Part shown: positions 26,961 to 64,000 of the stretch, in pieces
Numbering within the stretch: position 1 is the stretch's first letter
Layout: every line of letters begins with the position of its first letter
The notes under the pieces: model-generated
Databases searched by the model: none
What the model was told of the DNA's origin: nothing
Seen by the model: the letters and a program-made list of their open reading frames with translations, nothing else
Source: Pachyseris speciosa
Taxonomy: Eukaryota > Cnidaria > Anthozoa > Scleractinia > Pachyseridae
DNA length: 64,000 bases
Direction: 5' to 3'
NCBI GenBank assembly: GCA_016490735.1
Contig: JAEMWC010000381.1
Span: 332,501 to 396,500, forward strand
Made by a program: the position numbers and the translations under genes

Positions 26961-27102
26961 CCTGGTACAAAAATTGAGGTTGAAAGTGATGTTATTGACG
27001 GCGGCCGTGCACAAACAGATGAATATGTCTTTATCCTCCTTTCAAAATTGTAGGCGTCTTACACCGCTTTCAAAAAGATAACATGTGTAACCTTGTATTC
27101 CC

Positions 27103-27324: not shown

Positions 27325-27349
27325 ACATATTTATTTTCTTGAATATACC

Positions 27350-27562
27350 ATGAAGAATCAACATATTGACAGCTTTCTTTGCACATACACCTGGTGTACC
27401 TGGTGCGACAAGTGTCGCCTGGTCTGCCCTTGCAAAAATCCCAAACCAAAGTGGCACGAACGGGAAAACTTCGCGCGGCCATGCTTTATTCACAGGGCTC
27501 TTCTTCTTCTTACGACACTGTCTTCTGAAATTTTTACAATGTATATATCATGCGGGTTCTGA
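27350..27562 (+). CDS. Possible cysteine-rich small protein
   Basis: The frame from ATG 27350 holds FLCTYTWCTWCDKCRLVCPC, giving several closely spaced cysteines, then a hydrophobic end. It could be a zinc-binding protein, but the opposite strand is also open here (27278-27493). Low certainty. Confidence 0.25.
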   Translation: MKNQHIDSFLCTYTWCTWCDKCRLVCPCKNPKPKWHERENFARPCFIHRALLLLTTLSSEIFTMYISCGF

Positions 27563-28624: not shown

Positions 28625-28659
28625 TATTGGCTTTTTCTTTCGAATATATATTCAAATGA

Positions 28660-29715: not shown

Positions 29716-29917
29716 TAGCTCGTGGGGATTATTTCATGATACATATCACAATAATTTTCCCATGGAGAATCAAATCTGTGAATTTCTCCTTCTCGCAAAA
29801 AAGACAAACAGGTCTCATGAAACTCACACCTACATTTTGTGCAAACGACGATTTTCGTCTTACCGCGTCTCCGTGTGCAAACGGGAATTCTGCATTGGTG
29901 CCATATTCCTTCGAAAC

Positions 29918-32900
29918 TCATTCCTTCAAAAGATGATACTCGATCGGTTCTGTGTGAATTCCATCTGGCAACACGTACCGCTTGTCGTAGTTCGCGGACA
30001 GTTCCAGTTTCTTCGAGCGATATGTAACCGTCTCCCCCTCGTGCATTCGGTAGCCCGTGTTCTCCGCCATGTCCTTGTGTCTCTCGAGCGCGGCTTGAAA
30101 CCGCTCCCACCGAATTTCGTTTTGCCGCCACGACATTCCTTTTGTGGAGAACTTTGCGTACGTTCCGTCGACATCCACATAGTAGCACTTCGAGCAGAGC
30201 GCAATCATCCGTTCTCCCACACATTCGAGTTTGAACAGCCCCGGCGTCCGACGACTCCACTTGTCCCACGCCAGCCAGTTCTTATTGTCGGCCTCGAATT
30301 CCTCTCGCATGCGCGGAAGCACAACATCTTCCAACTTCTCCCCCGAGATTGCGAGATAGTTGCTGTCTGTGTCCATTTGCAGCAGCTCAAAGTCTTTGCG
30401 GTGAATGTACTTGCGTAGGAAGTCGTAGAATTCCAGCATCCGCAGCTTTGCGAGTTGGTGCACTGCGATTCCAATCTAGAAGGGACGGTCGATTTTTACC
30501 TTCACCTTTCGTCTTTCCAAGTAGTACGCATCATTTTCCCGTAAGCGCTATTCCCCAAGAGTTTGAACATGTCGGCGAGAAGCGCTTTGCTTTTGTCGGT
30601 ATCGTCGGTTCGCCTGGCTTTGGTTACTTCATCCACGAACCAGACGAAGGGTTTGGCAGCTGTGTAGTCGATTGTGCGATACACTGCTGTTAACCATGCC
30701 CCGTGGTCGATGTACCACCGAAGCAAGGGGGCAAAGAGGAGTATCTTCTTTACGGAAAGTGCACTAGCCAACTTGTTTCCATTCCCACGAGTCCTGCAGG
30801 TTTTCTCCAGATAGTCGAACATGTGTTGGGGGATAGCTTCGGTCAGCACTTCTGTGTTATGGAAGAATGGGCACATCTCCTCGAACTGGCGCGATGTCTA
30901 CCTCTGCGAAGCCGAACCGAATTCGCTTTCGGAGTCTGTGCACTAAACCTCCTGGGTCTTTGGTTGGATTTGTGTAGTAGGAAACCTTTCCCTTGCCGCG
31001 AGGCATGCCCTGTGGCATTGTCGGCAAATAAAACGCGTTGGCGTCGTAGCCGAGGATTTTCCGACAGGGATGGGGGTTTCGAAATTGGTGGTCTCGGATT
31101 TTTGTTTTCCCCGCTTCGTGGCACCGAGTAAACAAGATGCTTGGGCCACCGACCTTTGCCCCTTTCAACATGTCGTACTCTTCTTCCTTTGAGGTCCAAA
31201 TGTTCGCTCCTCGTTCGATTGCACTAAGGAGGATATAGTGCAAGCTTACTCCGGGGATCGACACTGCATCTTTTAAGATGTCGATTCCTTTCTCAGTGTA
31301 GAAGGCCAGCATTTTGTTCAAAGCTTCCAGACCTGGGACTACATCCAAGTTGTTGTAGTACTGCAACCAGTCGGCGAATGTTTTCATTCCCTTTTCTTGG
31401 AACAACTGGACGCATTGTGCGTGCTCTTCTTCTGTCAACAAGAATTCGTTGTGGAGTTTGGAGAACCATACGGAGTGTACGGAGTGGGGTGGAGGGCCAG
31501 GGTAATCGAGTTTATTGGGGGAATCAAACCACTCGCATGGGAACCACGATTTCTCTCCTTCTCATTCGAAGGCTTTTACCCATTTGTCGTAGCTGGTTCC
31601 TGGTCCGATATAGTTGACGATGTCGAGATATCGAAACTCCGGCGAAGAAAAGATGTCAACTTGTTGGCTTGTTTCAACACTTGCATGATTGTCTTTCCCG
31701 CACAGAGTTGTTCCACGAACTAATTTCGAATTAAGTTCAGATCGTATTTGCCAGAACTAAACCCAAGGGTTGGGACTTGGTTGCACCAATCCTCGATGCA
31801 CTGGCGTTGTATGTCGGAAAGAAAGTCCATGTCGGGAGGAAGAAACTTTGCTCTCACAGCCTTTCGGATTTTTTCTCCTCGCCGGTGCAGCTCGTCCAGG
31901 AACAGAAAGATCAATGTTTGGGGATCTTTGTCGCAAATGTGGGTGGGTTCTCGGTTGAATGCGTCGGCAATGGAGACAGAGATTGGAGTGTGTACATTTT
32001 CGCTTGTGAGGGACGGTGTCTGTTCTTTTCGGCGGTTGCTATCTCCGAAAGCTTCGAAGTCGTAGATTATTGCGTGGGGATAGCTTTCTGAGAAAGACTC
32101 GAGCTGGTATCTTTTTGGAATGTCCCCAACTTCACAACCCCATTTTTCTACAACTACGAAGCCGGCCCCGCGAAGCTTCGCAGTGCGGATTCGGGTTCTT
32201 CTCCAGCGCTCGTCAGGTGTATCTTTTCCGGTTTCGTCGATTGTTTCGTCTCTGAAATCGAGAAAACATCTGCGGCAGCCGTGGACTTGAAAGATCGTTT
32301 TGGTTGCGGGATCGTATCCATCCACAAAGCCTCCCTCGATGTATCTCTCTCCTCCATGTCCATGGTGGATGTGGATACCCCGTTCTTCTGCCTCTTTTTC
32401 CAACCAACGACATGCGATGTTGGAAAACCTTGTGTTCTGTGGGAAGAAGGCCTTTTCGAATGCGGTTTCGGGTTTTTTGACTGGTTTCGACCGACAGAAG
32501 ATTTTTGTTTCTCCATTTTTGCACCTTCCTTTCCATGGCGGTGGAGATTGACGAGTTTTGTGAATCTCTGGTCGTATTGGGCACAATGGTACACGTTTGC
32601 GAGTTGGGAAATGTCTCGGATATAGAATGCGTGCCCTTCATAAATGCCAATCGTCAGAATGTCTTTCAACGCGTGGTTTGGATTTCGCCGGAGATGCCAA
32701 ATCGGTTTGTCATTTGTTGGCTCGGGCTCGTAGACTCGAATGCCAAGCCATTGGGATGGGGGGGAGAAACTTGTTGAAATACCTTTCGATCTTGTCCAAT
32801 TCGTTCACAGAGGTTCTAGCTGTATCTTTTGGGGGTTTTGGAAGATCGAGATAGCTTTGTGCCAACACACGAGCAGGGGGGGTGCTTCCGTCTGGTCTTT

Positions 32901-33551
32901 TTTCCCCCCGATGCATCGCCAAACAGCGCCAGAAACAGAGGTTGTCGCGAAAGGTATCGAGAGAAATCATTGCGCGTCCGTGGGCCAAGTTGCACAACCA
33001 GTTTGGATGTGGACCAGTTCCCAGAAGAGGTTGGCGATCCAACAAAACTTTTAAGTGCAGACTATGGCACCTTTCGAAAACCCATTTTGTGTTGGGTCGA
33101 ACAACTTGCTGCTGCAGCCGTTCGTTTCCCTGCTGCTTTAACCATTCTTCTGCGGCTGTAACAGTGCGAAACCAAGGGGAACGGGGGTTATCTTTGTGGT
33201 CGGGGTATTCCATTTCTTCGTCGTTTTCTATATTTCGAAGAACATTGGCTGTCGTATGTCTCAAGAAGAAAAAGGTGTGGACGTTTTGCGCAGAAGTGCC
33301 ATCATTTCTTCCGTGTGGCCGCGACTGTCGGCGAGGTCTTGTGTTGAAACAATCCACAAGATATAGAGCTTTCCACTTTTTTTGTCGACACCTCTAAATT
33401 CGAGAGGGGCAAAGGTTTCAGTTACTCTTCGTCTGGAAGGGCGGGGAACTGCTCCATATGCGCGTTGTGGAACAAGAACGGGGGCTGCTCGCCGTTTGCG
33501 GAGCTTCTTTCTGCGCGGGGCGGGAATGGGGGCCTCTCGCTGCCTAGCCAT
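29918..33551 (-). pseudogene. Protein-primed family-B DNA polymerase of P1
   Basis: The start ATG 33551 is just inside the right terminal repeat. The N-terminus is proline/basic (REAPIPAPRRKKLRKRR), as in P2. A VSR-like endonuclease segment (ATKTIFQVHGCRRCF) follows. Exonuclease motifs are YDFEAF and LGFSSGKYDLNLI. Polymerase motifs include GYDANAFYLPTMP (A region), LLGNSAYGKM (B) and QMDTDSNYLA (C). The frames change near 33300, 32700, 32580, 31720, 31440, 30870 and 30480. It would replicate the element from a terminal protein primer. The total length of about 1,200 codons matches the family. Confidence 0.88.
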
Positions 33552-34644: not shown

Positions 34645-35410
34645 GGACATTTACAGTCAAAATACTCAGCGCGTGCCGCCTATTATTTGAGAATAGTTTT
34701 GATTAACTGCCAACGGGCTGCATAATTCGTTTCAAAACTTTCAAATTTAATTTGAATATTGTAATCATTCAACCGTAGCCCGAGTGTAACCTCATTTGAA
34801 ATACCGATTGTTGATTGGTTTATTTCTCACGTGGCTTGAACGCTTCGTGCAGTGTGCACGTGCGAAGATTGGTGCCATTTTGAGTCTTCTTCACTTGTTC
34901 GTCATTTTCTCAATCGTTTCACATGGTTTCCGTGGATTTCTTTTGATAAACACAAACCTAAGCTTTTGTAGAAAAGAATGGCGAATTTTTGGAACGGAAG
35001 TATCCAGGTTGCAGGGAAAATCATCCAAGAAACGTCTCCAGCGTAAAAGGTCAAATGTCAATTTCGTTATTTGATCAAGCGGGGTGAATTTCAACGAACG
35101 TGCTCCCCAGAAAAACAGATTCAGACCTGGCAAGCTGGAAAAAGTCGCCAAAAGGCCTTCTTTCAGCGGAGTGCGGTAGGTTTTTATGTTACAAGTCTTG
35201 AACACCACACGAAGCGTTCAAGCCACATGAGAAATAAACCGATCAACAATCGATGTTTCGAATGAGGTCGCACTCAGGCTACGGTTGAATGATTACAATA
35301 TTCAAATTAAATTTGAAAGTTTGAAACGAATTATGCAGTCCGTTGGCAGTTAATCCAAACTATTCTCAAATAAAATAGGCGGCACGCGCTGAGTATTTTG
35401 ACGGTTAAGT
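34645..35410. mobile_element. Non-autonomous inverted-repeat element
   Basis: Arms of about 205 bp (34645-34857 and 35206-35410) are inverted copies. Shared phrases are tactcagcgcgtgccgccta, caaatttaatttgaatattg and ttctcacgtggcttgaacgc. The ~350-bp middle is unique and does not code convincingly. The arrangement fits a fold-back DNA transposon or a large MITE. I do not see a clear target duplication. Confidence 0.8.
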
Positions 35411-41497: not shown

Positions 41498-44400
41498 CTA
41501 ATCAGAAATGCACAGCGTGGTCCACTTATTTCTGTATTTGTTAAGATTTCCGTTTGTTATTGCGATTTCTCTTTCGCATTCGATTTTAATTTCCAGGAGA
41601 ACAATGAAAACTTCCAGCTCTGGGGTCTCAAACTTGTTTCTAGCTAAGTAAACGTAATATCTAGCAATTAAGAGATAATGGTTAAAAGTATGAAAGCTGT
41701 TAGATTCAGGTTTGTATCCATAAAGAACTTCCGTTGAATTGGGATTTATGTTTTCAGAACGTTTACGATTCCACCAATCTATGACTTTTTCCCAAAAACC
41801 TTTTACCGCAGGACACTCGTAAAAAATATGACTAATAGTTTCACGAGGAGCATCACATTGTTCGCATTTTGGAGAAGATTTAACGTTCATTTTCCAAAGG
41901 CGTTGATTGGTCGGAAGAATATTGTGGATGAGTTTGAACTGAAAACTTCTTAGCTTATTTTCAATGGTGATTTTGAATGGAAGCTCATATACGGCACTAG
42001 GAGTGAATGTTTGTTCTCTTAAATAGGATTCAATTAATGGAGGGCAGAAAGATTTCTCAGCAAACATTAGTCGAGCATATTTTGCTGAAACATTTCCAAT
42101 GGTTAGTTGTGTTACCTTTGGTTCGTTGGTGTGTTCCTGATTGCCATGTAAGATAGCATTTTTCCAATCTTTAGGAATCGCGGCCAAAAGACCACCGTAA
42201 TCAAGAAAGGTACCACGAATGTGAAAAGTATCTTTAAGCTCTTGGAAAGAGAGGAAGTTATCGTGAACATTGAGGATATCTTTAATTCTTAAAATGCCTT
42301 TACTAATCCATGCTTTATAAAAAACCGTCTTTCCGCCGATCTTAATAAAGCGGTTATTCCAAAGTATTTCCTCTTTAATTTCATTAACACTAAGGGGTAC
42401 CTTGGAATGAAGGATCTGCCAGACCATTAAAATGTTCCTATAAAAGAGGGGAGACCCTCTAGAGCTAAGAATTTCAAATCGTAATTACACTGAAACAAAA
42501 AAGAGCCTCCGAATTTTTCAAGATGAGAATCAAGAAGCGCGCACCAATGATGACCATCCGATGAACAATAGCGGTTTACCCAGGCAGCTTTAAGAGATTT
42601 TTCTACGTCCGCGAAATTGACCATATTAAGGCCACCTTTGGAGATTGGGCCTGTCAGTGTGTTTCTTTTGATTTTATCAGGCTTAAAGTTCCATATGAAA
42701 GGGAAAATGACCTTATTAACTTCTTTAGCAAAATCGGTCGGAGTATCAAGTACAGAGCAATTATAAACAAGTTTAGACAGTGCTAATGTTTTGACAATAG
42801 AAATTCGCCCCAGGATTGACAAGCGCCGCCCGACCAAAGATTTAACACCTTTTTCATTTTAACAAGCCGTTCATGAAAGTTGATTTTCTCGCCGACGTGC
42901 GTTTCATAAGCGAAAACTACGCCTAGGGAGGAGACGTATTGCTTCGGCCAAGAGATACCAAAAGGCTCGTCATTACCTAATCTGTTTTTCCACAATCCCA
43001 GCCACAGCCCTTCAGTTTTCGACTTATTTATTCTCAGACCGGATAGCGTACTGAATCGATCAAGCAAAGCGAAAAGGGCTACTGCGGACGAGTCGTCATG
43101 AATAAAAGTAGTGGTATCATCAGCATATAGGCTGACTTTAGATTCTTTGTTTCCGTTTTTAAGACCTTTGATCGATTTGCTTGTTCTGATCTGAATAGCA
43201 AGAGGCTCTACGGCAAGAATAAAAAGCATCCCGGAAAGCGGGCACCCTTGTCTCACTCCCCTTTTTAGGGGGATGAATTCCGAAGCGTGTCCATTGTTTA
43301 CAATACAGCTAGAGATATTATGATAAAATGTGTGGACCCAGTTACGAAAGCTTGGGCCAAAGTTCATTTCCTCTAACACCCGGAAGAGGTAGTCCCATTC
43401 TAACGAGTCAAACGCTTTTTCAAAATCCAGAAAGAAAATCATTCCTTGGTCATTTTCATGTTGTGCGATAATATCAGAAATAAGACGGATGTTTTCGCCA
43501 ATGAATCTGCCCTTAATATATCCTGTTTGATCACTTCCTATAAGATGCGGAAGAACTTTCTCTAGCCGTTTAGCAATGCATTTAGTAGCAATTTTGTAAT
43601 CTGTATTTAAAAGCGAAATGGGACGCCAATTTTTAAGGGACAATAGGTCCTTATCCTTTTTTGGGATTAGCGAAATAATTCCTTGTCTCTGAGAGATGGA
43701 AAGTTCTCCTTGTAGAGCCCCGTGATTGAGACAGTCAATCAAAGGGCAAGAAATCTCCTTCCAAAAACAGAGATAGAATTCTGCTGTTAGACCGTCTGTT
43801 CCGGGGGTCTTGTTACGTTGAAAAGCTTTAATGGCAGATAAGCATTCAGCTTCAGTAATGGAACCTTCACAAAGGTTTTGTGAGACATCGTCTAGTCTTG
43901 GTAAAGGTCCAGAATTAAGAAAGTCTGATAGCTGGTCAGGGGAGGGTTGGCCTTGGGAAGTATATAATTGTTGGTAGTAATTCTTCATTTCATTCAAGAT
44001 AGTTTTCGAGTCTTCTATTGTAGACCCCGCCGAGGATTTCAATTTTTTAATGTGTCTTTTATTGTAACTTCTTTTCGAAAGGTTGAGAAAATATTTATTA
44101 CATTTTTCTCCTGATTCATACCATCGAGCTCGGCTTCTGACAATGCAACCTCTGGTTTTCTCCTCGGCCATTTGATCTAATTTAATTTTTATCTTTTTTG
44201 CCTCGTTCGCTAGAGGACTTCCTTCTGGAGCAGCATCAATACGAGCATTTAGATCTTGGAGTTTTCGGAGAAGTTCGAATTCCATATCTCTTTTTTCCTT
44301 AGCTTTTCTTTTAGCAAATCGAATGGAGAAGATCCTTATTTCCATTTTTATCATTTCCCAAAAAAGCCTTTTATCAGTAACTTCCCTGTACTTTTCTTTA

Positions 44401-45221
44401 GCATTTAGGATTAAAAACTTCAATTTTGTAACGAATTCTTCATTCTCAAGCAGAGAATTATTAAACTTCCAAAACCCTGGTCCTCTAGGTACGCCTTGAT
44501 CTTCTGGTGTCAACAAGATGGTGACAGGTGAGTGATCTGAGTCATAATAAGCGCTGATATCCGTTTCAGTAACGCGTGTCAGTAGTTGTTTCGAAATTAG
44601 CCAGAAATCTAGTCGACATTTAATCTTTCCTGAGCCATTTGCCCAAGAATAACGCTTCTTATTCGGGTGTTGAGTTCTCCAGACGTCGACTAAGTCAAAG
44701 CTGTTACAAAGTTCCTGGATTGCTTGTATGGTCTTTTTCTTATGGAGTATGTCCCTACCACCTACTTTATCGACCTCTGTCAAAGGGCAGTTAAAGTCAC
44801 CGCCTAGTAAAATGTTGTTAGTACTACTGCGGCGAATAGGATCGATGATTTTATCAAAAAAGTTAACTTGCTGGTTTTGGTCATTGGGAGCATAAATATT
44901 AACTAGACACAAATTATCTTGATCAATATTCATGTTCGCGACGAGAAAACGTCCATTTTTGTCCACAGTGATTTCCAGAATATCAACGTTTAGGGAAGAC
45001 TTAAACAAAATCATTACGCCCTTACTGTGTTTGGAACCATGCGCAAACAGGATTTCACCACCCCATTCTGCCCGCCACACATCCTCCAAGCTAGGATCAC
45101 TATAGGTTTCTTGTAAGAAAATTATATCAAATCTATTCAGATGTAGCCACCGAAAGAGCTTCCTCCGTTTAATTGATTTATTGAGGCCCCTTATATTCAG
45201 CGAAACCGCATTAAGGCACAT
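41498..45221 (-). pseudogene. LINE ORF2: endonuclease and reverse transcriptase
   Basis: The N-terminal APE-type endonuclease shows IRGLNKSIKRRK, LQETYSD, GGDFNC, RLDFWLIS and the DSDHSPV box. RT motifs are LIPKKDKD, WRPISLLNTDYKI, FLDFEKAFDSLEWDYL (A), GVRQGCPLSGMLFILAVEP (B) and SLYADDTTTF (catalytic). A C-terminal zinc-knuckle-like CEQCDAPRETISHIFYEC follows. The frame changes near 42829-42831 (C3 run on +) and near 42440. The latter junction reads TAATG. About 1,240 codons in total. Confidence 0.92.
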
Positions 45222-45702
45222 ATGTTTCTGATATCTTTAGGCATTCATTTTCGGGTTTATATGTGATCCACACTGTGCAAATCGTGATAGTGTTTTGCTC
45301 AAGAAAAAGTTGCCGTTTAGTATTTTGGCGCATGCAAATTACAATGCACAAAGGTGAAAAGCAGTTGCAAAATAAAAGACAAAACATCAAAAGCGAAATA
45401 CTTAGACAAAAAATTCTAGCACATGTAACAAAGTGAACATAAATTAAGCTGTAGAACAGCTTATTGTATAGGAAGGTTAATGCAAAGATGCAAGGCAGCA
45501 TTCAATCGCGATTATAGACGAAGCGACGCCCTCCTACCATTCTCTCCGCTAATTAAATATCAGAATGTAAATTTTGGACTGAAAAAAGTAGTAAGGTGTA
45601 AGGCGAAGAAAGTGAATAATTTAAATAGTATTGAAAAGAGGTGTTTCCTATTTTGGGGAGCAAATTAGCGTCGGGGTTTAGTAACCGAAGAAAAAGACTA
45701 AA

Positions 45703-46578
45703 TTAGCTAATTTTAGTAAGATCTCCTTCAGCGTGTATTATTTTTGGCTGTTCTTCCTGTGACTTCTTAATAAATATCTTGCCGTCCAAAGTCCAGGCAC
45801 TATACCAATGATGATCTTTCTTAAATTTTCTAACTTTAGCAAACAACTTGCGCCTTAAATATGTAAGATTTTCATTGATATATACCACGTTTGTAGCATG
45901 AAAATACTGATTTAAACTCACTGACTTTAGATGCTTCCTCGCCTTGTACAGCTCAGTTTTCTTCTTATGTGATTTGAACCGAACAATAATAGGTTTGGGG
46001 CCGCTGCTGTTCCGAGGTCCCATTCGGTGACAAATGTCGATATCCGAGGGAGATATGTGCACGTTGACGACTTTTCCAAGCTTAACAACATTTTCAGCGA
46101 TATCTTCGTCTGCAGTTTCGGCGATTCCATGAATCTCTAAGTTGTGTTTTCTTGTATACTGTTCCACGTCATCTACTTGGGTTATCGCCGTTCCAAGATC
46201 TTCGTAGAGGATGTCAACATCTGCCCTTGCCTCGCGGAGAGATTTTTCAAGCGACGACACTTTATCTTTAAGCTCTTTATTTTCTTTCTTGAGAGACGTC
46301 AATTCGGCATTATTGAAGTCTAAAGATTCCTTTAATTCTTCATATTGCCTTCTCATAGCACGGTTTTCTTCCAATAGTTCGTCTGTATTCCTACGGATCT
46401 TGTTTAGGACTATCCAAACGTTACTATCGTTCTCGTTGTCGCTTAATTCTTCAAGAGTCTGCTTCGCCGACTTGGTTGGAGGTACCTCGGGCGAGCTTCC
46501 GCTACTAAACCTTTCATCACGTTTTCTTCGTACGACAGAAGATGTATTACTGCCTTCCTCACTTTCTTTTCTTGACAT
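45703..46578 (-). CDS. LINE ORF1: coiled-coil RNA-binding protein
   Basis: From the ATG at 46578 (MSRKESEEGSNTS) the protein has a Ser/Arg-rich start, a long coiled coil (residues ~75-150: ENRAMRRQYEELKESLD, KKENKELKDKVSSLEKSL), then an RRM-like/CTD region typical of L1-type ORF1p (LEIHGIAETADEDI, DIDICHRMG, PIIVRFKSHKKKTEL). It would form a trimeric nucleic-acid chaperone. The frame is intact. The longer frame from 46629 adds 17 residues of unlikely sequence. Confidence 0.85.
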   Translation of the reverse strand: MSRKESEEGSNTSSVVRRKRDERFSSGSSPEVPPTKSAKQTLEELSDNENDSNVWIVLNKIRRNTDELLEENRAMRRQYEELKESLDFNNAELTSLKKENKELKDKVSSLEKSLREARADVDILYEDLGTAITQVDDVEQYTRKHNLEIHGIAETADEDIAENVVKLGKVVNVHISPSDIDICHRMGPRNSSGPKPIIVRFKSHKKKTELYKARKHLKSVSLNQYFHATNVVYINENLTYLRRKLFAKVRKFKKDHHWYSAWTLDGKIFIKKSQEEQPKIIHAEGDLTKIS

Positions 46579-46850
46579 TTTAGGGCGGAGAGAATAACGT
46601 TCTCGGACTACTCGAAAACACGTCCGCACATCATGCGAGTCTCCCCAGTCTCCAGAAATGATGAAATGTAAATTTCACTGATGTTAACATTGAAAACCAC
46701 CGGCATACCGAGCGCCCAAATGACTAATACGTAACACAACGTTTCTCGTATTTCTACATTTCCTCTTCGCAAAAACCAGCATATTTTAACATTTTGATCG
46801 AAAATAAAAACGCATTTCAATAACGAGGATGAACAACGAACTTGTCTTTA

Positions 46851-48344: not shown

Positions 48345-51300
48345 ATGGAGAATGACGAAAGAAAGAAATCTCCGGGCCTTGGAAAAGCCCTCTCAAATCA
48401 GGTCAGGTAGCCAGATGGTAAATGGCCTGAGTCGGAAAAATATTGGATCAGGTAGCCAGATGGTAAATGATTCGAGTCAAAAAATTATATATTCTAATAG
48501 TATAGACATGGAAAATAGAAATAGTATTTTCAAAGAATTATTGAAAAGATTAGGCCGTATGGATGTTGGCGAGATGAGGCGATTAGTTAGTCTCGCTGAT
48601 AACATCAAAAAGCAGAAGCCAATTCCAGCACCTCGCAAGAGTGTGAAGCAGATGGTTAAAGATTATGAAGACAACATAATTCTTCCACCATTACAATTTA
48701 GAGATAGACCAGTACCAAAACCAAGAACTAAAAAACTAGCTCCAATACCAGAACCAAGAACTAAGATAGAGCAAACAAGCTCTCAAAGGATACACCAAAT
48801 CATTTCAAATAGATATCAAAAATTACAAAGACCCGCTATTACAACTGCAAAACACAAGAAAGGCTGTAGCGTACCGTCTTGTAAGTTTACTAAAATCAAT
48901 GAAAGGACTGAAATTCGTTGAAGCACTAAAGGTAACATTCAGAAAAATGTCTGATGGTGAAATAATACATAAAACAGCCTTTTTCAACAGTCCGCCTCAA
49001 ACAATTATAAATAATCTCCAGATCAGTGAATCACTTCAAGCGTCAAAACAAAATGTATTAAATAAGATTGCAGTTTGGATTTCAGAAGGATCTGGCTGGG
49101 TTGTGGAATCAGTCGACAAGCATTTTCTAAATGTTGTAATATATCAGCCAATGAAAGGCTCATCATATATCAAACTACCCCCAGAATTAATGAATAAAAT
49201 GAAGGGATTGATTAACATGAAGAATAAAGATAATGAATGCTTCAGATGGTGCCACATCAGACATTTGAATCCACAAGATAAAGACCCTCAGAGAATAAAA
49301 AAATCTGATAGACAACATATTAATACGTTAGATTATTCTGGCGTTGAATTCCCCGTCACAACTAAACAGTACAACAAGATAGAAAAACAAAATGAGATCA
49401 ACATCAATGTATTTGGTTATGAAAACAAAAAACCATATCCAATTTATGTTTCAAAAGAAAAGTATGAAGACTGTTTGAATCTTCTATTGATTACAGAAAA
49501 TGAAAACAAACACTACGTTTTAATCAAAGATTTCAAAAGGTTCATGTATAATCAAACAAAGCACAAAGAAAGAAAACACTTTTGCATGCACTGTCTACAA
49601 TGTTTCAGCTCAGAAAGAGTCTTGAATGATCATGTGGACAACTGCATACTGGTTAATGGCACACAAGCAATAAAAATGCCAAACAAAGACAATAATATTC
49701 TAAAATTCATCAACTTCCATAAACAACAGCAAGTACCATTTGTAATCTATGCTGATTTTGAGGCTATAACTGAGAAAATACACGGTTGTCAACCCAACAA
49801 TGATAAATCATACACTGAAGCCTATCAGAAGCATACTGATTGTGGATATGGTTACAAGGTTGTTTGTTGTTATGATGATAAATACAGCAAGCCAATACAA
49901 ATATACAGGGGTGAAAAGGCTGTATACAAATTCATGGAAGCTATGTTAGAGGAAGTTAAATATTGCAAGAAGATTGCAAAAAAAGAATTCAACAAACCAT
50001 TGAAAATGACTGAGGATGATGAAGAGAAATTCCAAAAAGCTAAAGAATGTCACATTTGTGATAAAAAATACACTGAAAAGGATATCAGAGTACGAGATCA
50101 CTGTCACATTACTGGCCAGTATAGAGGATCAGCTCATCAAGAATGTAACCTGAAACTTAGAGTCAATCCAGAAGAAGTGAAGATACCTGTTATATTTCAC
50201 AATCTAAGAGGTTATGATAGTCATTTTATTATGCAGGAGATTGGAGCCATTGTCAAGAAACACACCTTCACAAATAAAAAAGGTGAAAACTGTCAAATGA
50301 ACATCAATGCTATCCCAAATAACATGGAGAAGTATATGGCTTTCATGCTCGGCAATCACTTGACATTCATTGATAGTTTCCAGTTCATGAGCTCTAGTTT
50401 GGAAAAACTTGTAGGCAATCTACCAAAAGAAGCCTTGAAATACACCTCACAAGAGTTCAAGGAAAGGATCTTGATCTGATGGCACAGAAAGGTGTTTATC
50501 CTTATGACTATATGGATAGTTTCGATAAATTCAATCAGAAGCTGCCCTCAAAAGAAGAATTTTATAGCATACTGAGTGATACTCATATATCTGATGAAGA
50601 CTACACACATGCTCAGACTGTCTGGAATACATTCTCCTTAAACAACATGGGTGATTATCATGACCTGTACCTTAAAACAGATGTACTCCTGTTGGCTGAT
50701 GTATTTGAGAACTTCAGAAGAACATGTCTTGAGTACTACAAACTGGATCCGTGTCACTATTTCACATCTCCTGGTTTATCATGGATGCGATGTTAAAGAT
50801 GACTGATATCAAACTGGAATTGATGACTGACATTGATATGTTCCAGTTCATTGAAAAGGGTATGAGAGGTGGTATCAGCTATATTGCAAATCGTTACGGT
50901 AAAGCTAATAATAAATACATGAAGAAGTATGATGAGAAGGCGCCCTCAAAGTACATTATGTATCTTGATGCTAATAATCTATACGGTTGGGCAATGAGTC
51001 AATACCTTCCAACAGGCGGATTCAGATGGATGACTGAGAATAAAATAAATAATCTCAACCTGGCTAAATACAAAGAAGACAGCAATAAGGGTTTGATTCT
51101 GGAAGTTGATCTGGAATACCCCCAGGAGTTGCATGATCTGCATAATGATTACCCGCTTGGACCAGAGAAGGTGAAAGTAACTGGAGACATGCTTTCAGAT
51201 TACTGTAAAGACATAGCAGAGAAATACAATATATCGACTGGTTTGGTACATAAACTGATGCCAACATTAAGCAACAAAGAGAAGTATGTTCTGCATTACA

Positions 51301-52235
51301 GGAACCTCCAATTATACACAGACTTAGGTTTAAAGGTAACAAAAATCCACAGAGTGCTAGAGTTCAAACAATCACCTTGGCTGAGACAGTACATTGATTT
51401 CAATACACAGAAAAGAACTAATGCCAAGAATGCTTTTGAGAAAGATTTCTTCAAGTTGATGAATAACTCAGTATTCGGCAAAACTATGGAAAATCTCAGA
51501 AAGAGAGTAGATGTCAGATTGGTGACTGATGAGAAGAAGCTATTGAAATTAGCCAGTAAACCAACTTATGTTAGCAGTAAGATATTCAATGAAAATCTGG
51601 TAGCAGTGCATAAGATAAAAGAAACACTAACTCTAAACAGGCCGGCATATGTAGGAATGTGTATTCTTGATCTCAGTAAGACACTTATGTACGATTTCCA
51701 TTACAACTACATTAAACAAAAGTACGGTAATAAGGCTAAGCTGCTCTTCACTGACACGGACAGTTTGACATATGAAATTGAAGCTGAAGATGTCTACAGG
51801 GATTTCTGGAATGATAAAGATAAATTCGATAACAGTGACTATCCTGAAAGCTCGCCATTCTCCGATAAGACCAATAAGAAAGTGATTGGTAAGATGAAAG
51901 ATGAGGCTGCTGGAGTCCCAATATGTGAATTCGTAGGGCTGAGATCAAAGATGTATAGCTATATTAAAGATGATCAGAAAGGAGGAAAAACAGCAAAAGG
52001 AATCAAAAAGAACACAATCAAAAATGAAATCAAGCATGAAAATTATAAAGACACTCTATTCAATGACAAACAAATGTATCATAAAATGAAAACAATCAGA
52101 AGTGAAAACCATCAATTAGGAAGCTATGAAATCAACAAAGTATCACTCAGCTGCTTCGATGACAAAAGATATTTATCAAAAGACGGAATCAACAGTTATG
52201 CTTATGGCCATCACAAAATAAATAGCCAGGAATAA
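48345..52235 (+). pseudogene. Protein-primed family-B DNA polymerase of P2
   Basis: N-terminal proline/basic repeats (KPIPAPRKSVKQMV, RPVPKPRTKK, PIPEPRTK) precede a VETLK-like region (LKFVEALKVTFRKM), a C2H2 finger (FCMHCLQCFSSERVLNDHVDNC) and exonuclease motifs YADFEAI and FHNLRGYDSHFI. A CxxC...H-x-C element (CHICDKKY ... DHCHITGQYRG) follows. Polymerase motifs are YLDANNLYGWAMSQYLP, FFKLMNNSVFGKTMEN and LFTDTDSLTYEI. Frame changes occur near 48395, 48905, 50470 and 50780. It is oriented inward from the left end and belongs to a different lineage from P1's polymerase. Confidence 0.93.
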
Positions 52236-52309: not shown

Positions 52310-53138
52310 TTAGTCTTTTCTTATACGTGATAAATACAATTTGCTTTCTTCCATGTGTTTGGTTATTTCAAAAATTAAATCTTCAAAACAATTGCTCATA
52401 ATGTATTTGCACTTGTTTTTCTCATACATTTGCTTCATATTTGTTTGTTTTTCCGACACTTGGTATACACCAGTGGGACTTTTGAATTCAAGACAAAGAG
52501 CATTGTATTTTCTGGTTGGATTCATTAACATCAAATCACATTGTCCAGACATATATCCTTTGTTATAACTTCTGATTCTCATATTTGAGCTTATTTGATT
52601 TTCACCTAAACCGGCTATCATTAATGCGTCTTCATATTTCTTTCTGATGAATGAAACAATCTTGCAGTGCAGATCATTTTCACTTCCAATCATCAGCATG
52701 TTATTACTTCTGTCATTGAACTGTTTGTAATATCCCTGTTTTCTGATTGATGGTAATACTTTTGATGTAACCCAATGTTTGAATTTTACTGCTTCCTGTT
52801 TTTTAGAGGACAGTATTAGTGAATAAAATCCTGATTCATTTATAAAAAAACATTTAAAAGTTTTTTCAATGGTCTCAGCACGAGGGACCGTTTTGGTCCC
52901 CCGTGAATCAGTGGTCTCAGCACGAGGGACCGTTTTGGTCCCCGTGAATTCGTCATTATTTTGAGGTCTATCAAGATTTTATCATCAGATACAACATGAT
53001 CTCTGATTGCTCTTTGCGGATTTTTATAGTCAAGAATTTTGGCTATGTCTCTTCCTCTGAACCATATTCGTTTTTATCATCGAGATAACAATCTATTGAA
53101 ACGTCTAATTCTTTATTATCGTAGGAATATTTTTGCAT
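52310..53138 (-). pseudogene. BRO-N and VRR-NUC nuclease protein of P2
   Basis: The ATG at 53138 begins MQKYSYDNKELDVSID. A BRO N-terminal domain follows: RGRDIAKILDY-type helix (shifted near 53067), KNPQRAIRDHV, FFINESGFYSLILSSKK and KFKHWVTSKVLPSIRK. The C-terminal ~125 residues are a VRR-NUC (PD-D/ExK) nuclease: ENDLHCKIVSF, GLGENQ, GYMSGQCDLMLMN (Asp) and LCLEFKSPTGVYQVSEKQ (E-x-K, Gln). A 40-bp tandem duplication (52868-52948) lies inside the coding region. BRO-N binds DNA in large viruses; VRR-NUC enzymes cut branched DNA. The upstream sequence carries the tatctaac box. Confidence 0.8.
52868..52948. repeat. 40-bp tandem duplication inside the BRO-N gene
   Basis: Two near-identical units, each reading ggtctcagcacgagggaccg then ttttggtccc and cgtgaat, lie head to tail. 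They differ by one C in a C run, which makes them 41 and 40 bp long. Each unit contains an inverted pair gggacc/ggtccc around aaaa. The high identity indicates a recent event. Confidence 0.9.
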
Positions 53139-53149: not shown

Positions 53150-54110
53150 TTAGATAATTTTCTTTAAATCCTTGATCGGTATCCAACTGTTAAATTCGTC
53201 ACTATAACCCTTCCACTTCACCAAAGCTTGTTTCTTCTTGTAATCTCTGCGAATGACTTTATCAATGCGGAATACATCCTGTCTGGCTTTTAATAACTCA
53301 GGTTCATAAAAACTCCCTTCAATTTCTTCATCGTTGTGATCTTTTAGTTTGTATGTTATTGGATTAGTGTATTGGATTTTATCAACTATAAACACTTCTT
53401 CTGTCCAATTTGGTGTATAGCCCTTGTCGAACACAATCCGTTTATACTTGGATATTCGGACCTTATCACCTATTTTAAATTTTAGTTTCTGTTTTAATGG
53501 CTCCATATCACCATACAAATTGAAGTAAACAGTTCCTTCATTCCTCTTATCAGATGCTTCAACGGGTGTCATCTTTGTGCTTGAATGTTTTGTGTTGTTA
53601 TACTGTTTCACTAATTTTGGTAACATGTCTAAATACTGTGTATTACCTTGAACAGTGAACTGCTTCCACATTTTGGACTTCATTGTCCTATTCCATCTTT
53701 CAACTACTGATGACTTCTCTTCATTCTCAGTTGAGTACATCTGTACACTATGTTTCTCTAGCAAGTCCTTCAAGTGTTTGTTGTAAAACTCTTTTCCCTT
53801 GTCGACCCATAAATACTGTGGTTTTCTGCCTTCCTTGAATATTGTTTTGAATGCTTCAGTGACAGATTCACCTTTCTTATCCTTCAATGGGACAATCCAA
53901 CCATATTTGCTGAAGACATCAATAACCATAAGAAGATATCGATAACCTTTATTCCATTTACTGAACTGTTGCATTTCAACTAGATCACTTGCCCATATTT
54001 CATCAATTTTATTTACAATCACACGCCGCCGAGTGAAATTTCGTTTTATGGGTGCATGTAATTCATCAGCTAGTTTTTCTTGCCAGTTTTCTTCACTCGA
54101 CGGCTTTTTC
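53150..54110 (-). CDS. rve integrase with chromodomain, P2
   Basis: The DDE core is visible: WASDLVEMQ (Asp), YLWVDKGKEF (Asp) and SSVVERWNRT (Glu). The central region continues to FKIGDKVRISKYKR (SH3-like). The C-terminal FRIDKVIRRDYKKKQALVKWKGYSDEFNSWIPIKDL is a chromodomain, which in retrotransposons and Polintons directs integration to modified chromatin. The frame from 54022 is intact; it is open further upstream to about 54110 (ENWQEKLADELHAPIKRNF) without an ATG. This upstream part overlaps the PLA2 gene end in another frame, so a PLA2-integrase fusion broken by a frameshift is possible. Confidence 0.9.
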
Positions 54111-54384
54111 CGTTTTTTGAAACACCAAGACCAAGTTTCTGTTTTTTGTCAATTAAGAATCTAGCTGTTTGACCCCATTTTGGCATCTCACCATATGGTA
54201 TTTGATCAAGTGACTCGACCATTGTTCTATCACATTCACCTTTATTTTTTCCCATATCATAACAAATATCGTGGTAAGCTGCTATTTCATCCACTTTGTT
54301 ATAAGGTTGTACATTCCATTTCAAGACCTCACCTGTGTTTGGATCATATTCCAACTGCTCATGAAGCGGGTTTATAGGTCCCAT
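54070..54384 (-). CDS. Parvovirus-type phospholipase A2-like protein, P2
   Basis: 104 residues: LEYDPNTGEVLKWNVQPYNK resembles the Ca-binding loop side, VDEIAAYHDICYDMG holds the catalytic His-Asp pair and Tyr, and ECDRTMVESLD completes the second helix. The tail is basic (KNGKSRRVKKTGKKN). Enzymes of this type in parvoviruses open endosomal membranes. The same gene occupies the same place in P1 (19819-20100), there with altered catalytic residues. The start ATG 54384 follows an aatataaatat box. Confidence 0.8.
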   Translation of the reverse strand: MGPINPLHEQLEYDPNTGEVLKWNVQPYNKVDEIAAYHDICYDMGKNKGECDRTMVESLDQIPYGEMPKWGQTARFLIDKKQKLGLGVSKNGKSRRVKKTGKKN

Positions 54385-54394
54385 ATATTTATAT

Positions 54395-54889
54395 TTACTT
54401 GGTGTCCATCCACTTTTCGTTTAGGAGCTTGCCAATTACCTTATGAATGTCAATAGCACCACCATAATCTAATCCTTTGATATCTGTTTTGTAACGAATA
54501 TTTGGTCTCACTTTTGTTGAGAGTTGTTTTTCAAAGCTTCTGACCAACTTTGTGATTGCAGGCTTTGCGAGGGAAAGTCCTTTGTCAATTAATTTCTTTT
54601 GCAGCTTTGGATTTCTCATTGCTTCTGAAGCATAATATCTCCCCATTTCAACACCTTTCTTTGCTAAATAAGGGACTCCATGTTCCAAGAATCCTGTTAG
54701 CGCCATATCTGCGGCTGAATCTAATATGCCCTTCCCTTTCTCACTTTTGACAAACTTAGTCTTAGTGATCCACACTCAGTACATTTACATTTCATCATTG
54801 TTCGACCATTTTTAGTCTTCTGATATCTTTCACTTCCTGGTACACATTCAGTGACTTTCTTCTGTTTAACACAATAAGATTTCATATAT
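54395..54889 (-). pseudogene. DUF5679-like zinc-ribbon core protein of P2
   Basis: The ATG at about 54889 (MKSYCVKQKKVTECVPGSER) is followed by KCKCTECG, forming a clear zinc ribbon. The frame then changes near 54775 and continues ITKTKFVKSEKGKGILDSAA, FLEHGVPYLAKKGVEMGRYY, ASEAMRNPKLQKK and STKVRPNIRYKTD, ending at 54395. It is the homologue of P1's 20446-21066, which lost two zinc cysteines. The upstream box reads tttatccaacttaatatatATG. Confidence 0.75.
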
Positions 54890-56820: not shown

Positions 56821-58089
56821 TTAATTTCCATCAGTCTTTCTCATCTCAATATCCTGCTCATAGAGGACCAGTGCATACACACTGTAATCAGCATTTGTTG
56901 TAGCACTCAAAGTGTATTTGAAAGTCAGTTTTGTCATTCCATCTTTAATATCCTGTTTCTGTTTTGTCAGATCGAAATAAACAAAAGGGAATATTGTACC
57001 GAAATTGCCCCTGTTGAGAAGGGTACTGTCACTGAAATCATTACCGCATGAACATATTTCAAAACATCTCTAAATACTCTTGTTGGTTCTGTTGATGGTT
57101 TATAACGAAGCTCTGGATAATCATTTCCGTTGCCAACCTCAAGATAACAATCATTCAAAGTTCGGTTATTTGCAACTGAGAATGTGTTATAGAGAAATTT
57201 ATTGGCTGTCTGAGATGCATCATTGACATCATTGATGATGAATACAAAGACATGCCTGGGTTTGTTTATTGCTGTGGAAATACGGAAATTGGCATTCTGT
57301 TGTCTTGTTGAATCGCCTTTCTCAATCAATTCTCTCATGTAAGTCCACTTTCTGTTGTCAAGATACTTGCTCATGTATAAGGACTTTCCCGCAGAATTGA
57401 AAACAATGCGAGGAACAATTAGCTGGAATTTAGTTAGTACCACACGGCAATCATCAGCAGCTTGCCAAATCAAATTGGCATCACTCTCAAGTGTCAATTT
57501 AATCTCTACTTTTGAGTTAGGCATAAGTTCATCCCAAAAGCTCTTGAAAAAACCGTATCTGTTCAATGCAAGCTCTGCATTTACTTTACCGGCTGCACCA
57601 TTCAACAGTGCTTACGAGCTGCAACCTTGTTATAACCTTGTAATACCACTGGGCCACTCTATCATCAGCTTGTCTTTTGTCGTCAAGATAGAAGAACTCA
57701 TTGGTTCCCTGACTTACAGCATAACCCTGTGAATACTGCAATGACAAATATTTGTGGTTGTGGCTGGTTGGCATCTCTGCACTCATAAACATCAAGACCA
57801 TTCATTTTTACATAAAGAGGTGTTATAAGAGCGTGAACTGAATTAACAATACCATTTCCCTGCAGCAATGTCAGCTCCATCTGCAAGCTTTTTTACAATG
57901 AAATCGACATTAAAACGGGCATTATACCAGTCAAATGTGTGTAGTCTCTCCACTGTTATCAACAATGAAACGGTAACCTGTTTTCTTCTGATGAGCATTG
58001 TTTGCTACTACAGTATTAAGTGCTGTCTCTAGTTCGAACACTACATCTTCATATCTTTCGATATATTTTGAGTCACGATAGTTTGACAT
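56821..58089 (-). pseudogene. Major capsid protein of P2 (double jelly roll type)
   Basis: The gene runs from ATG 58089 (MSNYRDSKYIERYEDVVFEL) to a TAA at 56821-56823, about 423 codons. Recognisable parts: DWYNARFNVDFIV, LADGADIA, NSVHALITPLYVKMNGLDVY, NEFFYLDDKRQADDR, GFFKSFWDELMPNSKVEIKL, RIVFNSAGKSLYMSKYL and, at the end, YSVYALVLYEQDIEMRKTDG. The frame changes near 57945, 57860, 57750, 57605 and 56975. Polinton capsid genes form double-jelly-roll hexons. The start lies directly after a tatctaacacaataatat box. Confidence 0.8.
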
Positions 58090-58352: not shown

Positions 58353-59136
58353 TTATAATTCCACACTTCTCAAGAACAACTCAATATACCAATCTATCCC
58401 ATTTAAATCGACTGGAGCTCTAGAAGAGTCTGTGACATAAAAGCGTATTGAGCTGATATTATGTGTTGAGACAGGATTCCATGAAAGAAAACGAGGTTTG
58501 TAAGTGAAAGGTAAACTTCTGACTAGATTTGTGACTGGAATAACAGCGATTGTATTTGTGCTATTTCCATCAACAATGCTATCTGTCACCAAATCACAAT
58601 TGATATAAATTTCATCTACACTTCTTGTGATATCAGGTAAATCTGTTCCATATTCATCAGCTTCAATCAATTTTGAATCGAAACCGATAAGTTTTCTGAA
58701 ATCATTATTTCTGAGATCCACACGATAATTTTCATTGAGTTCAATCAAAATGCGATATGTTGACAAAACGAAAGTTATATTAATACCATACTTGTATTTT
58801 TTTTCATCTGTTTCAGATGGATTAAGTCTTTGGTTTTTTTTCTCATGAATTTATGAATGTAATCATCGATATCGTCATATGAATACATACCATTGACGAA
58901 TGTCACTGTGAACCAGTTTGCACCTCCATCAACACTGTATTTAATTTGATTATTCCCAAAATATCTCTGATATTGTACCAACTGTATGTCATATTGATGA
59001 CATTCACAGCCATTTCATATTCCAAATCATTCGTTAATTTAAGAGGTGTATTGAATCTTTTTTCAAAATCATGACTCTTGCTGACACCAATTTTGTCTCT
59101 GTTTTTACTGTTGAATCGTAATGAAATTTCTGTCAT
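58353..59136 (-). pseudogene. Penton-like minor capsid protein of P2
   Basis: ATG 59136 (MTEISLRFNSKNRDKIG), then VINMTYSWYNI, YSVDGGANWFTVTFVNGMYS and, after frame changes near 58965 and in the T8 run 58834-58841, STYRILIELNENY, FRKLIGFDSKLI, NCDLVTDSIV, LPFTYKPRFLSWNPV and a DLNGIDWYIELFLR end. The order equals that of P1's 22872-23650. Single-jelly-roll pentons of Polintons have this length (~260 residues). The upstream box is atatctaatgtaaaagtat. Confidence 0.75.
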
Positions 59137-60000: not shown

Positions 60001-60026
60001 GTTAGACTAATCTAAACTATTTACAT
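60001..60026. promoter_or_regulatory. Divergent promoter region of P2
   Basis: The interval between the leftward block and ATPase contains gtgttagactaatctaaact: one TTAGA and one TCTAA box, in opposite senses, followed by acatATGG on + and by tATGG on -. The same boxes lie before other P2 genes. It probably drives both directions. Confidence 0.5.
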
Positions 60027-60664
60027 ATGGAAATCCCTAATTATGATATTCAGGGTTTAAAGAATTCATTCAGACAGTTGTATCCGTATATGCCAAAAGA
60101 CACATTCAGAATGTTATTGGCTGGTAATTCTGGATCTGGAAAGACAACATTGTTCATGCATCTGATTATGGAACCATTGGTCTATTATGATCAGATACAT
60201 CTTTATGCAAAAAATTTGATCAAGACAAGTATCAATATCTTCGGAAAGTAATGGATGAAATAAGCAGTCACATTGGATATCCTGCCTTGGTTTGCAGTCA
60301 AGAAGAGATATTGCCAGTTGAACAAATAAAAGACACAATTTGCAGCGATTGGTTGTTTTTTGATGATTTTGTGACTGACAAGAAACAAGATCAGATAATC
60401 AGCTATTTCATTCAGGGGAGACACAAGAACTGTTCAGTCATATATCTCACACAGTCATTCTATGGATGCCCAAAATCAATCAGACTCAATTGCAGTCACT
60501 TCTGCCTTTATGATTTCCCATCCTCAAGAGAAAGGAACTTGATTGCACAAGAACTTGGAATCGACAAGAAGAAATACATTGAAGCAACCAAAAAAACCTT
60601 ATTCCTTCTGTTATGTTGACAAGCCGATGAAGACAATCAAGAGAAATTTTTATGGTGCTGTTTA
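60027..60664 (+). pseudogene. Virion DNA-packaging ATPase of P2
   Basis: From ATG 60027 (MEIPNYDIQGLKNSFRQLYP) with Walker A GNSGSGKT and Walker B WLFFDDFV. IQGRHKNCSVIYLTQSFYG and LNCSHFCLYDFPSSRERNLI follow. The frame changes in the AAAAAATTT run at 60209-60217 and the A7 run at 60590-60596. It is the homologue of P1's intact gene (24464-25066). The positions of both breaks in homopolymers leave open whether it is truly broken. Confidence 0.88.
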
Positions 60665-60724: not shown

Positions 60725-63700
60725 ATGGGAGTTTTTAATGCTCAAATAAATCAAGAAAAACAGAAACTGGAACTGGTGAAAGAGGCCCTGCAGGTCCAAT
60801 TGGTCCTAAAGGTGAAAAAGGTGATAGAGGTGAAAGAGGTCCAAAAAGGTGATAAAGGTGAAACAGGTGATGGATTTAGATTAACACAAGATGGCAATTA
60901 TGATATTGAAAATAAACGTTTGACAAATGTTGGTGATCCAGTAAATCATTATGATTCTACTAACTTGGGATATGTTAATGATGCTGTTTTATCAATTGAA
61001 GGAACACGTGTTAATCCATTTAAATTTCTTCTTGAAGATACATCAAAAACAACTATTCTCAGAAATGCGAATAATCTACAATTAGAAGTCTATAATGAAA
61101 GCCCATACAATTTCAATAAAAAAGCCTTGTCTTTTGTTATTCCTTCTGCTGGTCTTACAACTGTTCTTCGTTTTGATTTGTCACAATTGGAAGTTTCAAA
61201 GTACACTTTAGTTGTTGAGTTTTATACTGATGGTAACCCAAATAATGCAACAGTTGATGACGACAATCTGTCATCTAATTTAATTGAAAGAAAAGATTCG
61301 ATAAAAAGAGCATTTCCAAAGACTCATCTTGTTGATGGTTATCTCAAGAGAATATTCTTCCTTGAAAAAACAAGTCATGGTTCCACATCAATGGAGTTAT
61401 TGTTGATTTCACCATATTTACAAAATAATAAAAAACATCATGTCATAGTTTATGGTGTTTATGGATTTTCTAATATCATTTTATCACATATTCACGACCC
61501 ATTTTTTGAATTAGAAGAAGGAAGAATTGTATTTGATCGTGAGCTTAAAATGAGTTTTCATAGAATAGTCAATGTTGCACGCCCTATACTTCCACAAGAC
61601 TGTGCAAATAGAAAATACGTTGATGATGGTGTAATAGGTAAAGCGGATAAAACATATCTCAATAATAACTTTGTGAAAAAAGATGGAAGCGTTGCAATGA
61701 CTTCTGATTTAATCTTGGAGGTAACAAATTGACTAATGTAGCAGCGCCAACAGCAAACAATGATTCAGCCACAAAGGGGTATGTTGATACTGAAATTGCT
61801 GGAATTACTGGCATTGATGTTTCACCATTTCTTAAAAAAGATGGAAGTGTTGCAATGACTGGTGATCTTGACATGGGTGACAATAAAATAACAAATGTTG
61901 GATCTCCAAACTCTGATAAAGATTCTGCCAACAAAAAGTATGTTGATGACCTTGTTTTTTCAGCATCAGGAGCTCAACGCAACCCATTCGCTTTTCTGTT
62001 AAAAGACATATCCAAGTCTTCTGCAGTCAGTGGTGTGGAAAACCTTCAAATTGAGAATTTTGACAGATCACCTTATCACATAAACAAGTCATCATTGTCT
62101 TTTTTCATCAAACGAAGAGGCAACTTTACATCCAAAATTCGTTTTAATGTGACATCTTTAAGAAATGGACAGTATACATTTGTTACTGAGTTTTACTCAC
62201 CATCAGACCCACGCCAAGCTACAATTGGGCTCGATCTTCGCACATTGAACATACGAGATGTGGGACAGTCATTTCAAAAACCTTTTCTCAAAACCCCGTA
62301 TGTTGATGGTTATATGAAGAAGCTTTTCCGAATCGAAAAAACTGGTGGCGGTCAAGCGTCAATTGATGTTTTACTTTTTAGCACAGCTCCTGCGTCTAAC
62401 ACCAAAACACATATCATCGTTTATGGGGCCTATGGCTATCATACCAATTTGTCTTACTTTCTCCATGACCCAGCTTATGAAATTGAAAACGGCCATGTTG
62501 CGTTTGGCAGTAATGTTGACATGAAATTAAACAAAATCCTCAACCTGCAGGATAACCCCTCAAACCCACAAGACGCTGTAAACAAAAGTTATGTTGATAA
62601 TAAAACAGCTGATTTCCTTAATATAAATACAGGTGGTGTAATTTATGCACCTGTCAGCATGAATAGAAATGATCTATTTGGCATACCAGATAACCCAAGA
62701 TTCGGTTATTCAGCTGTTAATAGAAACTATGTGAATGATAATTTTTTGAAACTCGATGGAAGTATTCCAATGGCGGGTGATCTAAACATGGCTGGAAATA
62801 AATTGACGAATTTAGCGGACGTGGTGAATGAAACTGATGCAGTGAACTTTAGAGTTTTAAATCGAGCTTCACAAACTATCAGAGCAAACACTTTATTATT
62901 GAATGGAACAAATGCGATGGCAGCGGATATGAAACTTGGAGGGCATAAAATCATTGACTTAAAAGAAGGAACAAATAAAACCGATGCCGTAAATTTAGAT
63001 CAATTAGAAAAAAGTCATATTTCATCTGCTTCTCATCCAAAGAATGCTTTCAAATATTTGATGAATGATATCGATGAAATTAGCACTGAATATGGCTTGA
63101 CAGTTAATGGATATGTCAATTTACCTCGTTCACCACATTTGATTTCAAAGAAGGTCATTGATATAGACTTGAATAAAGAATCTGAAGATACTTACAGAGC
63201 CAAAATTGGATTCAATATGTATACAATAAAAGATGGAACATACACTTTCATTCTCGAATGGCTATTTCCTGATTATGAAGGAATGAGTCTTAGTAGTGTA
63301 ACATTCAGTTCAACTAGTGGAATTTCAATTCATAAAACCGTAGGGAGAAAATTTGACAACAGAAATGAAGATCATTCGAGATATTTATTATGGTTTGAAA
63401 AACCTTCAGCAAGTTCACCACCTGAATATTTATATTGTACGATTAATATTAATGCTAACCCAACTTATCCAAATAAGTACAAAGTTCATTGTGTTGTATA
63501 TGGTATTGGTTTTGAAGCAGTAGACGTTCCATCAAGTGTTTACGACTTCTCTGAACCTTTCAAAATCGTGAATGAAACAATACAATTACAAACTGATTTA
63601 GATTTGAATGGTTTTGATGTGAAAGAAAATGAAAATTGGTTGTTTGGTGGAGACAATGGTGAATTTACAATGCTAAATAATATTAATATGAATACTTATC

Positions 63701-64000
63701 TGATAAAAGAGGCTAAACTTGGTGGTGATTTAAATCTGAATGGCTTTAGAATTCATAATAATAGTTTGAATCTATTTCGTTCAAGTGTCACAGGTGTAAT
63801 TATGGAAACAGCTTTCGATTTGGGTGGATTTGCTCTTTACAGGCCGAAATTAGGAGGTGATCTAAATTTGAATGGGAATGGAATAATCGGTCAAATACAA
63901 TATTTAAATTGCTCTGTCAAAGCCAAACGAGGACATAATAAGAATGCTTTAAAGCCTGTATTGATAAATGGCGCTGATTTTTTAGTCATTCATAACAATA
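60725..64000 (+). pseudogene. Collagen-stalked fibre protein of P2 (runs off window)
   Basis: The start ATG 60725 (MGVFNAQINQ) is followed by about ten Gly-x-y triplets (GERGPAGPIGPKGEKGDRGE). 'DGS.AMT.DL.(M/L)G..K.TNV...DSA.K.YVD' repeats follow. At least three beta-rich modules of ~165 residues start at about 61012 (NPFKFLLEDTSK), 61982 (NPFAFLLKDISK) and 63046 (NAFKYLMNDIDE). Each ends with a '(V/I)VYG(V/A/I).G' strand. DLNLNG repeats close the visible part. Frame changes occur in A5 runs at 60756-60760 and 60843-60847 and near 61711. From about 61733 the frame is open to the window end. Confidence 0.88.

Follow-up and report, generated by a model that had tools for sequence, protein, structure and literature searches.

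The 64,000-nucleotide stretch of the coral Pachyseris speciosa analysed here (assembly GCA_016490735.1, contig JAEMWC010000381.1, positions 332,501 to 396,500, forward strand; hereafter the window) holds two Polintons, Maverick-type endogenous viruses, each with a gene for a modular, fibre-like protein. It would seem likely that this is an attachment-fibre gene, encoding an anchor, a collagen neck, a shaft of repeats that would hold a trimer together and lectin-like heads. One head module (m4) is present in Polinton 1 and three (m1 to m3) in Polinton 2, as an earlier reading of the letters alone (the sequence-only reading) had described for its P1 and P2, taken here to be Polinton 1 and Polinton 2. 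The fibre open reading frames (ORFs) and their parts are as follows.

60725-61732, + strand: Polinton 2 fibre, first ORF (335 residues), with the anchor MGVFN, the last three collagen triplets, the first stalk repeats and m1
60775-60846, +: eight Gly-X-Y triplets, out of frame with the anchor ORF (three-frame translation); repeat family D2, spaced at 9 bases
60848-60874, +: three further Gly-X-Y triplets, these in frame with the anchor ORF
61004-61483, +: head module m1, first fibre ORF of Polinton 2
61729-64000, +, open at the window end: Polinton 2 fibre, second ORF, with stalk repeats, m2 and m3
61972-62454, +: head module m2, second fibre ORF of Polinton 2
62743-63030, +: stalk repeats preceding m3
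63034-63531, +: head module m3, Polinton 2, the closest of the three to the modules of relatives
63532-64000, +, truncated by the window end: GDLNLNG-type stalk downstream of m3
25100-25672, +: Polinton 1 fibre, first ORF, with the anchor MGWLN, about 20 collagen triplets and the first stalk repeat
25690-26691, +: Polinton 1 fibre, second ORF, with stalk repeats and m4
26017-26499, +: head module m4, the single module of Polinton 1

The position of the gene is the same in both elements. Ten Polinton 1 ORFs (19822-26688) match ORFs of Polinton 2 with their order kept, and in each case this late block closes with an A32-like packaging ATPase, with the fibre directly downstream on the same strand. 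The mechanism proposed is that of the fibre family, the copies in the window being frame-broken. The gene adjoins that of the packaging ATPase and faces the capsid gene block; the N-terminal anchor would fix a trimeric fibre to the capsid, presumably at the vertex, and would be followed by a short collagen neck. The three chains would be held together by a long shaft of phage or trimeric-adhesin type, with lectin-like beta-sandwich heads strung along it and, in relatives, a lectin-like tip. The most likely role of the heads would be binding to surface glycans, and going from one head to three diverged heads may give higher avidity or add specificities.

The head modules

A hidden Markov model (HMM) of the module, built from database relatives, was run on all six-frame stop-free stretches of at least 30 residues in the window. 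Its matches are confined to the m1 to m4 sites, with E-values of 1.4e-54 for the ORF carrying m2 and m3 (1.9e-16 and 8.8e-37 as single domains), 1.5e-39 for m4 and 7.2e-18 for m1, in agreement with the module counts of the sequence-only reading. Pairwise identity among the four is 22-41% in protein and 40-54% in DNA, so that assembly duplication, raised at the time as a possible source of the copies, is excluded. In direct BLAST comparisons m1 matches m2 at 42% (E 1.5e-43), m4 matches m2 at 33% (E 3e-22) and m2 matches m3 at 30% over 77 residues (E 4e-10); the m1-m3 match is weak (E 0.03), although the family HMM nevertheless takes all four modules. The nearest modules of relatives share up to 42% identity with m3 and up to 58% with m4. 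Both m1 and m2 are diverged, reaching at most about 30% and 32%, with no close counterparts among the relatives seen, and m2 used by itself as a query retrieved no match.

In an alignment of 12 modules the invariant residues are an asparagine and a phenylalanine at the start, a threonine and a glutamate mid-module and the tyrosine-glycine of the last strand. This last pair belongs to the VYG end strand noticed earlier; the NPF start does not hold for m3, which starts NAF. Sequence comparison with Pfam, PHROG and the PDB gave no significant match to the module, bearing out the view that it cannot be assigned to a known family: of 12 modules scanned against Pfam, three stray matches each occur in one, no carbohydrate-binding module (CBM) family was matched at E 1, and m3 was unmatched among 50,697 phage records. 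It is very improbable that the Polinton captured the module from an animal host, as a C1q/TNF-like or other extracellular domain, with animal domain families unmatched in the 12 modules and a fibre plan common to the relatives inspected from the list described below.

The stalk repeat and the collagen segment

The second fibre ORF of Polinton 2 matches the PHROG tail-fibre family phrog_2710 in four stretches (E 9.3e-22), and the segment 62743-63640 scores 40.6 bits against YadA_stalk (PF05662), above the cut-off of 28.4; the entire ORF scores 27.6 bits, slightly under it. PDB matches to the stalk come mostly through a profile of relatives, that of the window ORF itself being weak (Adhesin A, E 0.064). 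By similarity the repeat is of the phage tail-fibre or trimeric-adhesin type, as its description as phage-tail-like had held, and since it matches PHROG tail fibres, YadA_stalk and PDB entries the fibre would be expected to be a trimer. A candidate match to the T7 tail fibre N-terminal domain was rejected, as it scored 22.3 bits (cut-off 25.2) and covered only positions 110-151 of 157. A phage-like IMG/VR contig (L001, 3796-5682) encodes a 628-residue protein of mostly collagen triplets, next to a second protein that shares the stalk repeat of the fibre.

The term giant collagen-stalked fibre was overstated. Collagen amounts to 11 triplets in Polinton 2, and the bulk of the shaft is stalk repeat. 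The first fibre ORF of Polinton 1 exceeds the Pfam Collagen cut-off (PF01391, E 1.5e-8, 34.7 bits, cut-off 27.2), and the anchor ORF of Polinton 2 was unmatched in a scan covering its in-frame part, the out-of-frame triplets being excluded. At least 130 of 234 relatives have a G..G..G.GF stretch, about three Gly-X-Y triplets, within their first 60 residues. Because relatives carry this short N-terminal element, the 11 and about 20 triplets of the window look like an elongated form of it rather than a long collagen shaft. Nor is a host-like motif the natural reading of the collagen, given that three-triplet version in the relatives and the collagen repeats reported for phages, giant viruses and protist Polinton-like viruses in the available part of PMC12220804. 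Collagen-like repeats also occur in virophages, according to the available part of PMC3671162.

Relatives of the fibre

When the second ORF was used as query, 927 of the 7,999 candidates scored matched it at E ≤1e-3. The relatives considered here number 234, namely the best 120 of these 927 and the best 120 of 280 from a search with the module, six being shared; some are fragments. The module is present in 118 of the best 120 from the second-ORF search (117 by the first HMM), which is the only free count because the other search had a module as its query. The 234 typically consist of an anchor (MGIFN in 112, MSYSN in 76), the G..G..G.GF stretch, stalk repeats, one module and often a long C-terminal part. 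In all, 232 of the 234 carry the module, 230 of them once and two twice, though multi-module proteins may be undercounted because fibres far longer than the query fall outside the length range searched (0.55-1.75 of the query length). The expansion of heads first described is seen in Polinton 2, with its three modules, and is rare in this sample. In 170 of the 232 the module is not terminal, 240 or more residues lying C-terminal to it.

For the one relative in which it was modelled, the C-terminal part is predicted to contain a lectin-like domain. The chief competing explanation is that such a tip binds the receptor and that the modules are shaft decoration, spacers or units of folding or registration. 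This seems unlikely, as the module recurs in nearly all relatives listed, its predicted fold resembles sugar-binding modules, and arrays of heads binding carbohydrate along the fibre are reported for protist Polinton-like viruses in the available part of PMC12220804.

Predicted fold and comparison with known systems

The fold predicted for m3 is a beta-sandwich. The fold comparison, proposed earlier with adenovirus knobs, C1q/TNF and phage receptor-binding domains in mind, points to beta-sandwiches of the CBM-like or viral surface-domain type; neither the adenovirus knob nor C1q/TNF is among the matches listed. CBM27, CBM22, CBM28 and CBM4 share the predicted fold and lack a sequence match. 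The readthrough domain of a luteovirus, an RNA virus of plants (potato leafroll virus, 7ulo), is 13% identical over 124 residues, without sequence similarity. One point weighs against lectin-like heads: the top Foldseek match is not a carbohydrate-binding module, which makes the attachment-fibre reading slightly less likely. What stands of the receptor-binding apparatus first suggested is a fibre-like Polinton protein with a recurring, predicted beta-rich module that would bind a receptor. We offer more hesitantly, as a possibility we would not favour outright, that this is a CBM-like head family specific to the fibres of eukaryote Polintons, normally with one copy ahead of a lectin-like tip, and that the three diverged copies here give several glycan specificities.

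An adenovirus fibre likewise has an anchor, a repetitive shaft and heads, and may share the role; the Polinton fibre differs in its phage/adhesin-type shaft, its several heads along the chain and its collagen neck. Tailed-phage tail fibres (PHROG 2710 and 25848; T7, PF03906) share the stalk repeat, the T7 match being limited to the last quarter of the profile and, in the window, below cut-off. Trimeric autotransporter adhesins resemble the fibre in the stalk repeat that exceeds the YadA_stalk cut-off; unlike in those adhesins, the YadA membrane-anchor and head families were unmatched in the window pieces, from which the C-terminus is missing, and in 28 relatives. Closest in kind are the fibres of protist Polinton-like viruses (Microbiome 2025, PMC12220804), which are, in the available part of that paper, long modular proteins with collagen, phage-tail-type repeats and carbohydrate-binding head arrays of up to seven Laminin_G_3 domains, often with a C-terminal Peptidase_S74 chaperone. 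Those heads belong to known Pfam families, whereas the Polinton head is unnamed, and Peptidase_S74 was found in none of 28 relatives at E 0.05, the C-terminus of the window fibre lying beyond the window. In the available part of PMC11071296, which surveys animal viruses and covers adintoviruses among them, fiber genes are named once and penton inserts are described; fibre terms do not occur in PMC11071308 or PMC7805220. The literature searched, with most subscription papers outside its scope, gave no description of the module or of a fibre of animal Polintons. As the protist plan is reported and a description of the module was not found, the fibre plan would appear to be known in kind and the new part to be the unnamed head family.

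Polintons carry capsid genes, and further element-specific proteins, of which one may be this fibre, are reportedly listed in the paper that first described them (PNAS 2006). To our knowledge free Polinton virions are little known and their route into cells is open. If the reading as an attachment fibre is correct, a conserved lectin-headed fibre encoded beside the capsid genes would speak for an extracellular stage with attachment to cells, and the protist plan of phage-type shaft and lectin-type heads would extend to an element with an adintovirus-type chromodomain integrase. The heads also offer single domains suited to expression and ligand tests.

Frame breaks in the fibre genes

The Polinton 2 fibre does not lie in a single open reading frame, the anchor and m1 being in one ORF and m2 and m3 in another. 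The first ORF stops within a stalk repeat and the second resumes the stalk in a different frame; because the repeat carries on from one to the other, the two would form one gene, with at least three frame changes as assembled. It was read to base 64000 only, and more modules may follow. An open frame of 764 codons lies within the fibre, compared with a longest of 144 codons among 300 base shuffles. The Polinton 1 fibre is also split (25100-25672 and 25690-26691), with extra stalk in another frame past about 26660.

The elements might be intact, the frame changes being assembly errors or programmed slippage. The return to the frame of the anchor after the collagen segment suits small indel errors, and the available part of PMC11071296 reports candidate slippage in the penton genes of adintoviruses. 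However, splits are also found in the Polinton 2 ATPase, in its polymerase and in the Polinton 1 fibre, while LINE (long interspersed nuclear element) ORFs of the window, 812 and 607 codons long, stay open. Since they do, base quality seems adequate and decay is favoured over poor sequence; intact elements are thus improbable, and the frame-broken fibre copies of the window are probably fossils.

Other genes of the two Polintons

About 19.8 to 33 kb (19800-33400), outer limits not located: Polinton 1, GC content 0.45-0.51
About 48.8 kb to past 64 kb, cut by the window end: Polinton 2, GC content 0.33-0.37
24185-25066, +: packaging ATPase (A32-like), Polinton 1, directly upstream of the fibre; PF04665, E 6.8e-13
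60006-60619, +: packaging ATPase (A32-like), Polinton 2, in two frames (60006-60251 and 60191-60619); PF04665 in each piece
28660-29715, +: integrase, Polinton 1; PF00665, 34.1 bits, cut-off 32.6
53150-54148, -: integrase with chromodomain, Polinton 2; PF00665 and PF00385 (53150-54022; PF00385 E 3.8e-8)
48770-52235, +: candidate DNA polymerase B pieces, Polinton 2, related to Polinton 1 29921-30475 and 30505-30897
58353-58850, -: capsid-vertex (penton) candidate, Polinton 2; 37% identical over 139 residues to Polinton 1 22875-23627 (E 6.4e-25)

Both elements have the retrovirus-like integrase (PF00665, rve) and the A32-like packaging ATPase (PF04665) of Polintons. The integrase and polymerase pieces are related between the two and differ in location and orientation, being at the other end in Polinton 1. 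We take 48770-52235 to be the protein-primed DNA polymerase B of Polintons from motifs seen by eye and from gene order; its ORFs did not match a Pfam polymerase family. The name penton is likewise assumed from motifs and order, the homology between the two candidates being what was found, and the Polinton 1 candidate had no Pfam match at E 0.01. The double jelly-roll capsid candidate of Polinton 2 (56967-57611) was without a Pfam match. The adenovirus-type protease PF00770 was weak in Polinton 2 (E 0.032, 14.4 bits, under the cut-off of 21.3) and unmatched in Polinton 1 in the Pfam scan. No chromodomain was found in the Polinton 1 integrase at E 0.01. A long pair of terminal inverted repeats spanning Polinton 1 was not found at the settings used, and Polinton 2 runs past the window end. 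The integrase with a C-terminal chromodomain, an adintovirus feature by the definition in the available part of PMC11071296, is present in Polinton 2; the same definition also names a PolB with an OTU-like domain and a hexon that BLAST can recognise.

Beside this integrase lies a phospholipase-A2-like domain (PF08398, E 1.6e-7; 54070-54420, -), with a homologue in Polinton 1 (19822-20190, -); the protein is possibly a membrane-penetration factor. The integrase is also adjoined by a Bro-N protein (52310-52978, -; E 2.4e-11) with a weak VRR_NUC match, and an Endonuclease VII domain is found in the first polymerase ORF region (48770-50479, +). LINE elements occupy 42783-46629 (-) and 17377-19200 (-), one of them with open endonuclease-reverse transcriptase and ORF1-type frames. 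Hairpin-like inverted-repeat sets at 34650-35408 and 19220-19619, with arms of 124 nucleotides at 91% and 85 nucleotides at 95%, are possibly insertions of the miniature inverted-repeat transposable element (MITE) type.
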